From NCBI GenBank assembly GCA_030747075.1, contig JASLLL010000016.1, positions 1-53,948 of the forward strand: a DNA stretch of 53,948 bases, in the 5' to 3' direction. Below the pieces are notes generated by a model. The model ran no database searches and had not been told where the DNA came from. It was given only the letters and a program-made list of their open reading frames with translations. Shown here in pieces: positions 1 through 53,948 of the stretch. The position numbers and the translations under genes were made by a program. The stretch is from Gemmatimonadota bacterium. Lineage in GTDB: Bacteria; ARS69. Numbering within the stretch: position 1 is the stretch's first letter; every line of letters begins with the position of its first letter.

Positions 1-17
1 GCTGTGGGGTACGGTAA

Positions 18-302
18 AAGCGGCTTATCGGTAGGGGGACAGGGGTTCGTCTCTTGTACGGAGAACGGATTGAGAGTCGGGCTGCGGACAACTGCAAGGA
101 GGCTAAGTATGTACCAGCAAGACAAGCGTTCTCTTGTGATGCATGTGGGGAGCATGATGATGCTCATGTCCCGGGCAGGTCAACGGGGCTCCTCTGGGAC
201 GCCCGCGACAGCGACGGACGCCGGGTCGTATCGGGCGTCTACTTCCTGCGCCTGAAGGCGGGAGAGGGAACCGCGACTCGCCGACTGGTTCTCTTGCGGT
301 AA
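18..302 (+). pseudogene. C-terminal sorting-domain fragment of a secreted protein
   Basis: The reading frame is open from about 18 after an in-frame TAA and ends at the TAA at 300-302. Only the last 40 or so residues are recognisable: LLWDARDSDGRRVVSGVYF, then LRLKAGEG and a basic LVLLR end. This is the last strand pair of a FlgD-like Ig / type-IX-like C-terminal sorting domain, the same module that closes the two proteins at 26552-31023. The upstream 40 codons resemble nothing and no full-length protein precedes them, so this is probably a remnant, or the tail of a gene interrupted by a frameshift close to the window edge. The tail itself is convincing; its status as a pseudogene is inferred. 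Confidence 0.45.
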
Positions 303-48805: not shown

Positions 48806-50209
48806 TTACCCTCCGAGAATCCGTGCGGTCTGCGCCACGAGGAAGCAGACGACGATCCCGATCCCCAGCGGGAGTAGCGCGCCGAGCGTCGTCCACCTTG
48901 TGCTGCGGGTCTCCTTCCACATGGTGAGGATCGTGGTGGAGCAGGGATTGTGGAGCAGCGAGAAGAGCATGACGCAGGTGGCGGTGAGAAGCGTCCACTC
49001 GTGGCCGTCCACCAGGAGTGTCTGGAGTTCGGCGAGACTGTCGAGTTCGGTCATCCGGCCGACACCCATGTAAGCCATGATGATGGTCGGGACGACGATC
49101 TCGTTCGCGGGGATCGCGATGATGTACGCGAGCAGGATGACGCCGTCGAGTCCGAGGAGATGGCCGGCGGGGTCGAGGGCTGTGGCGAGGTGCGCCATGA
49201 TGCTGGCGTCGCCGAGGTGGACATTGCCGAGAATCCAGGCAATCCCGCCGCACGGCGCGGCCATGATGATGGCGCGCCAGAGCACAAAGAGCGTGCGGTC
49301 GATGAGGGAGGTGTAGAAGATCCGGAGGAATCTGGGGCGGCGCCATGGCGGGAGCTCAAGCGTGAAGGCGGAGGCTTCGCCCTGAAGGACGGTGCGGGAG
49401 AGCCCCCACGAGACGGCGAGTGTGAAGCCGACCCCGAGGAGGACGACGCCGACGACGCTGCCCGCGGCGGCGAAGGACGCGGCGGCGGGGGACACGGTGG
49501 AGCCGACGAAGAGCGTGCCGAGGACGATGAGCGTGGGGAAGCGGCCGTTGCAGGGGACGAAGTTGTTCGTGAGGATGGCGATCAGACGCTCGCGCGGGGA
49601 GTCGATGACCCGCGTGGCGATGACTCCCGCCGCGTTGCAGCCGAAGCCCATGGCCATGGTGAGCGCCTGCTTCCCGTGGGCGCCGGAGCGACGGAACATC
49701 CAGTCGAGATTGAATGCGACGCGCGGCAGGTACCCCAGATCCTCCAGGAATGTGAACATGGGGAAGAAGATGGCCATGGGCGGGAGCATGACCGCGATCA
49801 CCCACGCGAGTCCCAGATAGACGCCGTCCCAGAGGAATCCCGTGAGCCACCAGGGCGCGCCGAGCGACTGGAAGAGGGCGGTGCCCGCGTCTCCCAGACC
49901 GAAGAGGAGGTTTGCGAGCATGGAGGAGGGGTAGTTCGCGCCGACGATCGTCAGCCAGAAGACCGTGGCGAGAACGACCACCATGAGCGGCAGCCCGAGC
50001 GTGGGCGAAGTCACCAGGCGGTCGATCCGCCGGTCGAGATCCAGGCGTGCGCCATCGGGTGCGTCGGTGGCGCGGCGGGCGATGCGCTCCGCTTCGTCGA
50101 AGAGCGAGTGGACCATGCGGTCGCGGAAGCGGTCGCCGAGGCCGCGCTGGAGTTCGTCCGCGCGCGCGAGGACCGGATGGGTCGGAGGGGACTCCAAAGG
50201 GCGGCTCAT
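48806..50209 (-). CDS. feoB: FeoB membrane subunit (split FeoB, Fe2+ permease part)
   Basis: Predicted 467 residues, ATG 50209 overlapping the G-domain gene stop (ATGA). There is no G domain. After a helical N-terminus, LGLPLMVVVLATVFWLTI begins the first helix. The conserved Cys motifs of FeoB gates are present: GFGCNAAGVIATR (about residue 205), VPCNGRFPTLIVLG (about residue 240), and NPCSTTILTMWKET near the end. AIPANEIVVPTIIMAYM is another conserved segment. It forms the Fe2+ pore and must work with the separate G-protein subunit encoded immediately upstream. Confidence 0.93.
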   Translation of the reverse strand: MSRPLESPPTHPVLARADELQRGLGDRFRDRMVHSLFDEAERIARRATDAPDGARLDLDRRIDRLVTSPTLGLPLMVVVLATVFWLTIVGANYPSSMLANLLFGLGDAGTALFQSLGAPWWLTGFLWDGVYLGLAWVIAVMLPPMAIFFPMFTFLEDLGYLPRVAFNLDWMFRRSGAHGKQALTMAMGFGCNAAGVIATRVIDSPRERLIAILTNNFVPCNGRFPTLIVLGTLFVGSTVSPAAASFAAAGSVVGVVLLGVGFTLAVSWGLSRTVLQGEASAFTLELPPWRRPRFLRIFYTSLIDRTLFVLWRAIIMAAPCGGIAWILGNVHLGDASIMAHLATALDPAGHLLGLDGVILLAYIIAIPANEIVVPTIIMAYMGVGRMTELDSLAELQTLLVDGHEWTLLTATCVMLFSLLHNPCSTTILTMWKETRSTRWTTLGALLPLGIGIVVCFLVAQTARILGG

Positions 50210-51006
50210 GGGGTGGTCTCCTTCGGTCGGGAGACGCCGAGCGACGCGAGTTCCCCGGTCTCGAGAGCGCGTCGCACGCGGAGATCGCCCTCCAGCAACC
50301 GGTAGGCGACCCAGCGCGCGCTTGGCAGCCCGGGAGCGGCTTCGTGCAGGAGCGGGAGCATTTCGTCGACGGCGGCCTGAACCTCCGGCGGTGGTTCGGG
50401 GAGCCGCGGGGCAGTGGGGATGCTGCCATCGGTCACGCCCGCGACCGTGCGGACGAGGTCGGCCAGGCCCTCGCCCGTGCGAGCGGAGGTCGGCACGGCG
50501 GGGACGCCGAGATCGCGGGAGAGCTGCCGGGCGTCGACGGTGATGCCCTTGCGGCGCGCCTCGTCCATGAGATTCACGCAGACAACGGCGCGCGGGGTGA
50601 TCTCCAGCACCTGCAGCACAAGGTTGAGGTTGCGCTCGAGAGCGGTGGAGTCGACGACGACCACGGTGCAGTCCGGCTGCCCGAAGAGGATGAAGTCACG
50701 GGCGATTTCTTCGTCCTGAGACGCGGAAAGGAGCGAGTAGGTGCCCGGGAGATCGACGAGCTTGTAACGGACGCCCTCCCACGCGAAGCCGCCTTCGGCG
50801 CGGGCGACGGTCTTCCCGGGCCAGTTGCCGGTGCGCTGGCGAAGGCCGGTGAGGTGGTTGAAGACGGACGACTTGCCGGTGTTCGGGTTGCCGGCGAGCG
50901 CGACGACGCGGTCGAAGTGCGTGAGAGAAACTCCCATGCGGTCGAGGCGGCTTCCCGTGGGGCAGGCGTCGCAGGAGGAGGGCCGGGGAGCGGCGTCAGG
51001 ATGCAC
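50206..51006 (-). CDS. feoB: FeoB G-protein subunit (split FeoB, NFeoB part)
   Basis: Predicted 266 residues from GTG 51006; ATG 50937 is an alternative. G motifs are GNPNTGKSS (G1, about residue 39), the switch region with TGNWPGKTV, DLPGTYSL (G3), VNLMDEA (G4) and TSARTGEG (G5). A four-helix guanine-dissociation-inhibitor-like part follows. An N-terminal extension carries CDAC, a possible metal site. The gene ends before any membrane segment. It overlaps the regulator gene by 11 bases upstream and the permease gene by four downstream. Also known FeoB proteins fuse both parts; the split is the notable point. Confidence 0.92.
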   Translation of the reverse strand: MHPDAAPRPSSCDACPTGSRLDRMGVSLTHFDRVVALAGNPNTGKSSVFNHLTGLRQRTGNWPGKTVARAEGGFAWEGVRYKLVDLPGTYSLLSASQDEEIARDFILFGQPDCTVVVVDSTALERNLNLVLQVLEITPRAVVCVNLMDEARRKGITVDARQLSRDLGVPAVPTSARTGEGLADLVRTVAGVTDGSIPTAPRLPEPPPEVQAAVDEMLPLLHEAAPGLPSARWVAYRLLEGDLRVRRALETGELASLGVSRPKETTP

Positions 51007-52024
51007 GGGCGGCCTTCTCTTCGACGGGGCGCACCCAGATTTGGGAGGCCTGGCGGCGGCGGAGCGCGATCAGCGTCCCGCGGACGCGGAAGGCGCGCGG
51101 GTCTCCGACCATCGTGGAGAGTTCGGCGAAGAGGTGCGTGCCGGGCGTGAGGCCCAGGTCGAGCAGGCGCCGGCGGGTGAATCCGCGGCAACGGGAGTCC
51201 AGAAGGACCACCTCCGCCTCGGCTCCGGTGGGAAGGTCGGAGAGCGGGATGACTCCGGCGGGGCGTTCGCGCTCTTCGGGGGCGGCGGGGACCACCTGTA
51301 TGTTTGCGGCGACCACGGGCGCGAGGTGGTGTTCGGCCTCTCCATCGGAAAGGACGATGCGCTCCGGCGTGGATTCGAGCACACGAACGATGCGGCCCGG
51401 CCCGAGGTCCGCGGCGGTGATCTGGCGCATGACGATCTCCGGCTCATCCTCGACATGCGTGATGCGGGCGGGACGATCGAGCGGCCACTCCGTGAGCGCC
51501 ACCGCATCCGCGCGCGGGAGGGTCTCGCCGGCGCGGGGGATGGGGTCGCCGTGGGGGTCGTGGAGCGGGTGGCCGAGGTGGGCTTCGAGCTGTTCGAGGT
51601 CCGCGGGAGTGAGGCGATGCTCGGCGCGTTCGGCCGCGCGGTGAATGCGCCCGAGCGGGAGCCCGGCCTCGTCGACGAGGTATCGCTCCCAGAGGCGGTG
51701 CGCGCGGACGACATGGAGCGCGAGGCGTTCGCCCTGGTGCGTGAGGGCGAGGCCGTCGCCGGTGGATCGGAGAAGGCCCGCCGACTCCATGCGCGAGATG
51801 AGGCTGAGTGTGCGGGAAGGCGGAAGCGTGAGCAGCCCGGCGAGCGACTCCGGCGTGGCGGCCGCGCCGCGGTGCTCCCGGTCGAGGATGTGCTTGAGCG
51901 CGTCTTCGACCGCCGCGCGGGATCGGGAGGCGCGGAGGGCGCGGATGCGGGCAAGGACGCCCCAGCGCGGCCAGAGGAGCGCGGCGAGAAGGACCGCCAG
52001 CGGAGCGGCTGCGTCAGGCGACAT
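50996..52024 (-). CDS. DtxR-family protein with two C-terminal FeoA/SH3 domains and an N-terminal membrane segment
   Basis: About 342 residues from ATG 52024; GTG 52054 would add ten. Residues 6-25 are hydrophobic (APLAVLLAALLWPRWGVLA), suggesting membrane anchoring. A winged helix follows (PESLAGLLTLPPSRTLSLISRMESAGLL), then a metal-binding dimerisation part with AHRLWERYL and IHRAAERAEH: His, Glu, His, Glu, Glu, His at the DtxR/MntR ligand positions, with Glu where DtxR has Cys102. Then two SH3 modules, the last a FeoA domain (RRRLLDLGLTPGTHLFAEL, GDPRAFRVRGTLIALRR). It probably supplies FeoA to the split FeoB; DNA binding from the membrane is uncertain. Confidence 0.88.
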   Translation of the reverse strand: MSPDAAAPLAVLLAALLWPRWGVLARIRALRASRSRAAVEDALKHILDREHRGAAATPESLAGLLTLPPSRTLSLISRMESAGLLRSTGDGLALTHQGERLALHVVRAHRLWERYLVDEAGLPLGRIHRAAERAEHRLTPADLEQLEAHLGHPLHDPHGDPIPRAGETLPRADAVALTEWPLDRPARITHVEDEPEIVMRQITAADLGPGRIVRVLESTPERIVLSDGEAEHHLAPVVAANIQVVPAAPEERERPAGVIPLSDLPTGAEAEVVLLDSRCRGFTRRRLLDLGLTPGTHLFAELSTMVGDPRAFRVRGTLIALRRRQASQIWVRPVEEKAARAS

Positions 52025-52676
52025 CGCGCACCAGTATGTGGCGGGCGGCCTCACGGCCGAGCGTGTGGAGATCCCGGCCTGCGCGGAGCGTGATGGGGCC
52101 GTCGAACGGGGCCACTTCCTTTACGCGGACAGAAACGCCGGGAAAGAGGCCGAGCCCGCCGACATAGCGGAGGAATTCGGGATCGTCGTCGCTGACCTGC
52201 GCCACCGTGGCGCGGCCCCCGGCGGGAAGCTCCGCCAGCGGAACGAGCACGAGACGCGGGAGAGACCCGTCCTTGGCGGGGATCGGGTGGCCGTGCGGGT
52301 CGGTGGTGGGGTTGCCGAGCTGGTCGGCGATGCGATCTTCGAACTCCTCGCTGATGGCGTGCTCCAGCTTGTCGGCCTCTTCGTGCACGCGGTCCCAGGA
52401 GTAGCCGAGCGTGCGATGCAGAAAAGTCTCCACGAGACGATGATGGCGGAGAATCTCCAGCGCGCGTTCGCGGCCCGCGGCGGTGAGGGAGGCGCCGCGC
52501 CGCTTCTCGTAGCGGACCCAGGCGGGGCGCCGGGCGGCGAGACGCTGGAGCATCTCCGAGACCGCGGCCGGGGAGACGCCGAGGCGGGTGGCCAGCGTGC
52601 CGGTCGTGGCTCGACCACGCTCCCCGCCGATGAGGAGGACGGCCTTCAGGTAGTCTTCAATCTTCTCGGAGGGCAT
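52014..52676 (-). CDS. DtxR/MntR-family metal-dependent transcriptional repressor
   Basis: Predicted 220 residues, ATG 52676. The winged helix has EKIEDYLKAVLLIGGERGRATTG and LGVSPAAVSEMLQRLA; the dimerisation part has HHRLVETFLHRTLGYSWDRVHEEADKLEHAISEE, and an SH3/FeoA-like C-terminal domain follows from about residue 145. Ligand residues are His, Glu, His, Asp, Glu, His; Asp stands where DtxR has Cys102 and MntR has Glu, so Fe2+ or Mn2+ sensing is open. It heads the locus, sits next to its own operator-like palindrome, and likely represses the four genes including itself. Confidence 0.92.
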   Translation of the reverse strand: MPSEKIEDYLKAVLLIGGERGRATTGTLATRLGVSPAAVSEMLQRLAARRPAWVRYEKRRGASLTAAGRERALEILRHHRLVETFLHRTLGYSWDRVHEEADKLEHAISEEFEDRIADQLGNPTTDPHGHPIPAKDGSLPRLVLVPLAELPAGGRATVAQVSDDDPEFLRYVGGLGLFPGVSVRVKEVAPFDGPITLRAGRDLHTLGREAARHILVRDVA

Positions 52677-52689
52677 GGTGACCTCGGGA

Positions 52690-52705
52690 TTTAGGTGACC
52701 CTAAA
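52690..52705. promoter_or_regulatory. DtxR/IdeR-like operator palindrome
   Basis: TTTAGGTGACCCTAAA: 6-bp arms TTTAGG and CCTAAA around TGAC. The inner 14 bases match the DtxR/IdeR core TTAGGTTAGCCTAA at 12 positions. It overlaps the -10 of the promoter read toward the regulator gene. Confidence 0.65.
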
Positions 52706-52808: not shown

Positions 52809-53819
52809 ATGGGTGACCGGCCAGGGAAGCTGATGGAGCAGATGCGGGGCGCGATTCGCATGAAGCAGTACAGCCCCCGGACGGAGAAAGCCTACGCGCA
52901 GTGGGTGCGGAGGTTCGTGCGTTTCCACGGGATGCGGCACCCGCGGGAGATGGGCGCGGGCGAGATTCGAGCGTTCCTGACGCACCTGGCCGAAGTGGGA
53001 CGCGTCAGCGCATCCACCCAGAACCAGGCGCTGTGCGCGCTTCTGTTTCTCTACAGGGAAGTGCTGGGTGTGAAGCCGGGGTGGGTGGACGGGGTGGCGC
53101 GAGCGAAGCGGCCGGTGCGACTGCCGGTGGTTCTGGGCCGCGGGGAGGTGAACGGCGTCTTGAGCGCGATGCACGGTATGCCGAGGCTTGTCGCGACACT
53201 TCTGTACGGGTCGGGGCTGAGGCTTCTGGAGAGCGTGCAACTCAGAGTGAAGGACCTGGACTTCGAGAGGCTGGAGGTGTGCGTCCGGAGCGGGAAGGGG
53301 AACAAGGACCGACTGACGGTGCTGCCCGCCGGGATCGTGGAGGCGCTTCGGGGGCACCTTGCGAGAGAGCGGGAGCGGCATCGGGCTGAGAGGGCCTCAG
53401 GCAGGGGACGGGTGAAGCTGCCGAAGGCGCTGGATCGGAAACTGCCGGGTGCCGGGGTGGAGTGGGCGTGGCAGTGGGTGTTTCCGGCGCGAAGAACCTA
53501 TGTGGAGAGAGAGACCGGGCGCGAGTTCCGGCATCACTACCACGAAACGGCTGTCCAGAGGGCGGTGAGGTCGGCGGCCATCCGGGCGGAGATTCCGAAA
53601 CGGGTCACCTGCCATGCGTTTCGCCACTCATTTGCCACGCACCTGCTGGAGGACGGATACGACATCAGGACCGTGCAGGAACTCCTGGGGCACAAGAGTG
53701 TCAAGACGACGATGATCTACACGCATGTGCTGAACCGAGGGGGCCTTGGGGTTCGGAGCCCGGCGGATGGGCTGCGGGCGGCGCGGCGGTTGGGGGGGCG
53801 TGGGGGCAGGGCTGGATAG
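52809..53819 (+). CDS. intI: Integron integrase (IntI-family tyrosine recombinase)
   Basis: About 336 residues from ATG 52809; upstream GGAGG and AAGGAAG give a fair ribosome site. The N-terminal SAM-like domain contains [23 protein letters not shown]. Catalytic residues include Arg in YGSGLRLLE (about residue 136), [12 protein letters not shown] (His and Arg, about residue 268), [15 protein letters not shown] with Tyr (about residue 303). The insert that separates IntI from XerC/D is present: [18 protein letters not shown], then [17 protein letters not shown]. The C-terminus ([15 protein letters not shown]) is also IntI-like. It is transcribed toward the window edge, away from the Feo locus, so any cassettes on its 3' side lie outside or at the very end. 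Confidence 0.93.
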
Positions 53820-53879
53820 CGAGACGGAGGGGAGGTGCCGGGCGGGCGCAAACTAGTGGGGGCGGGTGGATTGTGATGT

Positions 53880-53908
53880 TTGCCGAATATGCGGAGGGTG
53901 TGTTATAC
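53880..53908 (+). promoter_or_regulatory. Possible promoter after intI, directed toward the window edge
   Basis: TTGCCG (53880-53885), a 17-base spacer, then TTATAC (53903-53908). No gene follows in the window. In an integron with inverted integrase this would be the place of the cassette promoter. The match is moderate and the function is inferred. Confidence 0.4.
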
Positions 53909-53934
53909 AGAACGGGATAGGGGGAGGGGGGAGT

Positions 53935-53941
53935 GTTGGGC
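53935..53941 (+). other. GTTRRRY core-site match near the window edge (possible attI or attC point)
   Basis: GTTGGGC fits the integron recombination core GTTRRRY. A 7-base degenerate motif is expected often by chance, so it matters only through its place 116 bases after the intI stop and downstream of the promoter-like sequence. The window ends seven bases later, so neither the paired site nor a cassette can be checked. Confidence 0.25.
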
Positions 53942-53948
53942 GGGGCAG

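Follow-up and report, generated by a model that had tools for sequence, protein, structure and literature searches.

An integron integrase gene at a contig end of a Gemmatimonadota bacterium probably marks the intI end of a reverse integron

The window analysed here is the entire contig JASLLL010000016.1 (C16, 53,948 bp) of a Gemmatimonadota genome (GCA_030747075.1, hereafter G000), which was assembled to 2.67 Mb in 61 contigs. At its right edge the window carries intI, an intact integron integrase gene (52809-53819, + strand), which starts with ATG at 52809, ends with a stop codon at 53817-53819 and encodes a product of 336 aa. On the 5' side of intI, a divergent dtxR gene belonging to a Feo locus lies at a distance of 132 bp. 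On the 3' side the assembly ends at 53948, 129 bp past the intI stop. This locus was read, with a probability of roughly 0.8, as one end, with intI, of a reverse integron of the sedentary chromosomal type, the cassettes of which would be expected 3' of intI.

The predicted integrase was scored at 423 bits by TIGR02249 (curated cut-off 265). Scores with the XerC and XerD models were 151 bits (cut-off 335) and 137 bits (cut-off 330), respectively, both far under their thresholds. The closest solved structure identified with phmmer was Vibrio cholerae IntI4 (2a3v, E = 2e-75), which aligned end to end, including the catalytic R, H-x-x-R, H and Y residues as well as the IntI-specific insert. Separate Xer-type recombinase genes of the genome are located on contigs C3 and C5. 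At the level of sequence the protein was confirmed as a genuine integron integrase and not an Xer recombinase, in agreement with the original prediction, which had named it IntI rather than XerC/D on account of the recombinase residues and the insert.

For detection of attC sites, two covariance models (R1 and R2) were used, replacing a looser motif finder. That finder had recovered attC sites of related species that a first, stricter finder had overlooked, as the R boxes of these sites pair poorly. Five genomes of the phylum were present in the collection (G000-G004), and an IntI over the cut-off was encoded in three. In G001 and G004, which represent two sister genera within the same small phylum, attI and co-directional cassettes lie 3' of intI. 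On contig C352 of G001, a GTTGGGC core is located 148 bp past the intI stop, after which come a cassette for a secreted protein and an attC of canonical form. The end of C352 and contig C23 overlap by an exact match of 114 bp, and C23 contains 17 more attC-bounded cassettes, all on the strand of intI and with near-identical attC arms (mostly TAGGGTTTGCAGC ... GCTGAAACCC). When joined, both contigs yield a single integrase followed by 18 consecutive cassettes. A promoter-like site is present between intI and the first cassette of G001, on the cassette strand. In G004, two attC-bounded cassettes were found 3' of intI (65.8 and 36.9 bits with R2). The G004 integrase gene (L092, 7636-8653) is interrupted by an in-frame TAG close to the 3' end; it is probably an inactive pseudogene beside an array that is still present. 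More attC-bearing contigs were found in both genomes. The integrases of G001 and G004 belong to the same family-level lineage as that of the window and clustered with it in the first tree, albeit weakly (support 51); the genes upstream of intI differ from those in the window.

Array layout was recorded for 80 related IntI loci, a sample of nearest relatives. The R2 model detected 102 attC sites in 83 sources. Sites were seen in 38 of the 80 loci: in 16 they lie on the + strand and at least some are 3' of intI (reverse layout), in 22 on the - strand 5' of intI (classical layout), and no locus mixed both patterns. At L074, a locus of reverse layout, + strand attC occur on both sides of intI. Locus L058, for which 3' attC were indicated by the motif finder and not confirmed by R2, was kept unlabelled. 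Mapped onto the IntI tree, the layout labels required a single change (shuffled labels: minimum 8, mean 13.4). All classical loci fell into one clade of 54 rows (97 in the Shimodaira-Hasegawa-like approximate likelihood ratio test), and the window was placed outside. In a bootstrapped tree to which class 1 IntI1 was added, again one change was obtained and IntI1 was placed inside the classical clade; the smallest strongly supported set including the window comprised 31 of 86 rows (98/95). Reverse and classical layouts thus appear to be separated by a single deep split of the IntI tree, with the window outside the classical clade. The literature searched, coverage of which was partial, contained no report that layout is tied to one split of the IntI tree. 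An out-of-sample check was made on a finished Gemmatirosa replicon, which had carried no layout label when this rule was derived: its IntI is likewise positioned outside the classical clade, and 36 attC are found 3' of intI.

The positions at which assemblies break point in the same direction. Of the contigs that terminate no more than 600 bp from intI, those of the classical clade mostly do so 5' of the gene (18 of 20), and those of the remaining loci mostly 3' of it (7 of 8; p = 2e-4); assembly is evidently halted by arrays. Contig C16 terminates 3' of intI, the side typical of reverse-type loci, and the chance of a random contig end landing at such a 3' position is about 0.3%. Together with the sister arrays, the position outside the classical clade and 52.8 kb free of attC on the 5' side of intI, this supports the original prediction that any array must be sought on the 3' side. 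Its statement that the Feo locus occupies the 5' side likewise held. Its description of the inverted order as that of a minority has to be revised: with 16 of the 38 scorable loci in this sample of nearest relatives, reverse layout is not a small minority among IntI of this kind.

The flank between the intI stop and the contig end (53820-53948, + strand) probably represents the part of attI nearest to intI. This flank was compared with an attI profile that was built from reverse-layout relatives and evaluated by leave-one-out. The profile gave the top rank to the true crossover in 12 of 13 core loci, both sisters among them. At reverse loci the crossover is mostly found 148-190 bp past the intI stop, with a TTATRC-like heptamer near -55 and, in many cases, another near -24. 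The window flank contains two core-like heptamers, GTTATAC (53902-53908) and GTTGGGC (53935-53941). For the window, the best crossover of the profile was predicted at about 53990, off the contig. If GTTATAC is taken as the -55 heptamer, the crossover would lie at about 53956, also off the contig. Because both predicted positions exceed the contig end, the contig end most likely falls within attI, ahead of the first cassette.

Several observations weigh against the reading as a reverse integron with an array. The attI match of the window flank is suggestive only (shuffle p = 0.04). Other contigs of the G000 bin share no more than chance-length matches with the C16 end. In the approximately unbiased test, placement of the window within or as sister to the classical clade was not rejected (p = 0.52), so that the tree by itself is not decisive on the window. 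No convincing attC was obtained with R1 and R2 anywhere in the 2.67-Mb G000 assembly, where only 150 of more than 3000 candidate stretches were scored. R1 gave strong matches in G001 and G004 as positive control; the array of G000 must consequently be either unassembled or unbinned, or absent. Covariance-model search of the 53,948 bp window, a check proposed with the original prediction, likewise revealed no attC, and an Rfam search of the window gave no match. A lone weak R1 match in G000 (C5:95817, E = 0.06) was not confirmed by R2 and was discarded. No attC-bounded cassettes were detected in the window or among the G000 stretches scored; they are seen in both sister genera, and the contig stops before their expected start.

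The lack of detected attC in an assembly rated 100% complete could be accounted for by a reverse-type locus that is empty and consists of IntI and attI without cassettes. A near-empty integron has been reported for Treponema brennaborense, and there is precedent for integrons without a cassette array (PMC3607928). Nevertheless, this explanation was considered unlikely: the contig end coincides with the point where arrays start in relatives, the 3' break recurs in reverse-type relatives, arrays are present in the sister genera, and contigs with arrays are readily lost in assembly or binning. Because no attC was found in G000, some probability also remains for the solitary integrase that the original prediction had named as its alternative. 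Much less probable is a locus of classical layout, the array of which was lost or moved, so that the integrase stayed behind next to the Feo locus. Within the tree alignment, the IntI most identical to that of the window (61%) was one of classical layout (L017), and a sister position to the classical clade was not rejected as stated above. However, the window was placed outside that clade in both trees, the sister genera are reverse, and the classical arrangement with attI and array 5' of intI is contradicted by the divergent dtxR at 132 bp and the attC-free 52.8 kb. Finally, an Xer or phage-type tyrosine recombinase, with which the protein shares the general recombinase domain (Pfam Phage_integrase), was refuted on the TIGR02249 score, the failure to reach any Xer cut-off, the end-to-end IntI4 match with the insert and the distinct Xer-type genes on C3 and C5.

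As established for the enzyme family, the integrase acts on attC as a folded bottom strand, which it recombines with attI. If the locus is a reverse integron, intI would be transcribed toward its own attI, which would lie 3' of the gene and start within 53820-53948. Promoterless cassettes would insert at attI just past 53948 as folded attC strands and read in the direction of intI. The assembly may have broken at attI because the first cassettes are variable, or these may not have been binned; a cassette array would then exist in the G000 genome. Neither the window flank nor the stretch from intI to the first cassette in the sisters showed a terminator-like site, and hence co-transcription of intI and cassettes is possible. 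Read-through from the intI promoter could help to express the first cassettes. As the reverse layout puts integrase and cassette transcripts in line, induction of the integrase and expression of cassettes could be coupled.

Class 1 integrons (IntI1) and the Vibrio superintegron share the enzyme family and the attI x attC chemistry. They differ from the proposed system in their classical divergent layout, and both integrases are placed inside the classical clade. The IntI of Gemmatirosa kalamazoonensis plasmid 1, a complete replicon of 1.1 Mb retrieved in a plasmid search, is 60% identical to the window integrase. The plasmid carries a large reverse integron (L148, 20001-40411) with 36 strong attC (E < 1e-4), all on the + strand and 3' of intI within 20 kb. 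A few weak - strand matches were present, which are mirror images of strong sites or near chance level. Its layout is that proposed for the window, from which it differs in its large array and complete replicon. Reverse integrons, in which intI and cassettes are transcribed in the same direction, are known from Treponema (PMC3607928, PMC7691350), and for the IntI of Spirochaetota a generally reverse orientation is reported (PMC9668308). The reverse integron of T. denticola and relatives is sedentary and chromosomal, as proposed for the window (PMC3607928, PMC7691350), but belongs to another phylum, and the array of the window itself was not assembled. In comparison to Treponema, attC of the sister species are GC-rich with TGCAGC / GCTGA arms. 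Reverse integrons are already known, and the window is probably a further case, in a candidate phylum.

Reverse integrons are thereby added for an undersampled candidate phylum. The split in the tree offers a predictive rule, by which the IntI clade indicates the side of intI to be searched for cassettes. The rule could help to recover arrays that metagenome assemblies have lost at the ends of contigs, as many of the integrases regarded as "lone" may be mere breaks at attI.

In proteins of the phylum, several cassette products included, a [ST]WGxxKxxYR tag was observed directly ahead of the stop. Instances are located at 5-34 (+) of the window, genome-wide in G000-G004, and in loci L122, L091, L092 and L128-L147. 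The strict DNA pattern of the tag gave 18, 36, 22, 22 and 33 matches in G000 to G004, respectively, and a reversed control gave 0. A plausible signal peptide was assigned by a simple hydrophobicity rule to 27 of 29 sampled tagged open reading frames (ORFs), some of which derive from overlapping loci and are counted twice. A looser form of the tag was not found in 958 kb of IntI loci from other phyla. No paper on the tag was found in a literature search, and no NCBIfam family was obtained for four tagged cassette proteins. The tag looks like an undescribed sorting or anchoring signal. Tagged proteins with signal peptide are encoded by several cassettes (L122 on C23 of G001, L091, and cassette 1 of L092). 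In the G001 array the strict tag is over-represented compared to the genome (3 versus 0.14 expected, p = 4e-4); because of this excess of tagged signal-peptide cassettes, the array resembles a store of secreted proteins adapted to the host. Only tentatively, and with the odds somewhat against it, these elements may be combined: layout would be a deep and essentially fixed trait of the IntI lineage with one split, reverse loci would have their own type of attI with core-like repeats some 55 and 24 bp ahead of the crossover, and the array of the phylum would be a bank of secreted proteins with the host C-terminal WGxxKxxYR tag, partly expressed by read-through from intI.

The Feo locus on the 5' side of intI is encoded on the - strand. 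The divergent neighbour of intI (52014-52676) encodes a DtxR-family repressor with C-terminal FeoA (Pfam Fe_dep_repress, Fe_dep_repr_C, FeoA). It is followed by a gene for a protein with DtxR C-domain and FeoA (50996-52054; Fe_dep_repr_C, FeoA). The feoB gene is split into two overlapping ORFs (48806-51006), one for the N-terminal GTPase part (50206-51006; FeoB_N, E = 2e-58) and one for the membrane part (48806-50209; Gate, FeoB_C). No LexA-type box (CTGT-N8-ACAG) is present in the window, and SOS control of intI is therefore not indicated. The divergent intergenic region between dtxR and intI contains a TTAGG-N4-CCTAA palindrome (52691-52704, no strand assigned), which is the single match in the window (0 expected in shuffles) and overlaps promoter-like hexamers on both strands. 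Judged by known consensus sites, the palindrome resembles a DtxR/IdeR box. If it is bound by DtxR, intI might be iron-responsive.
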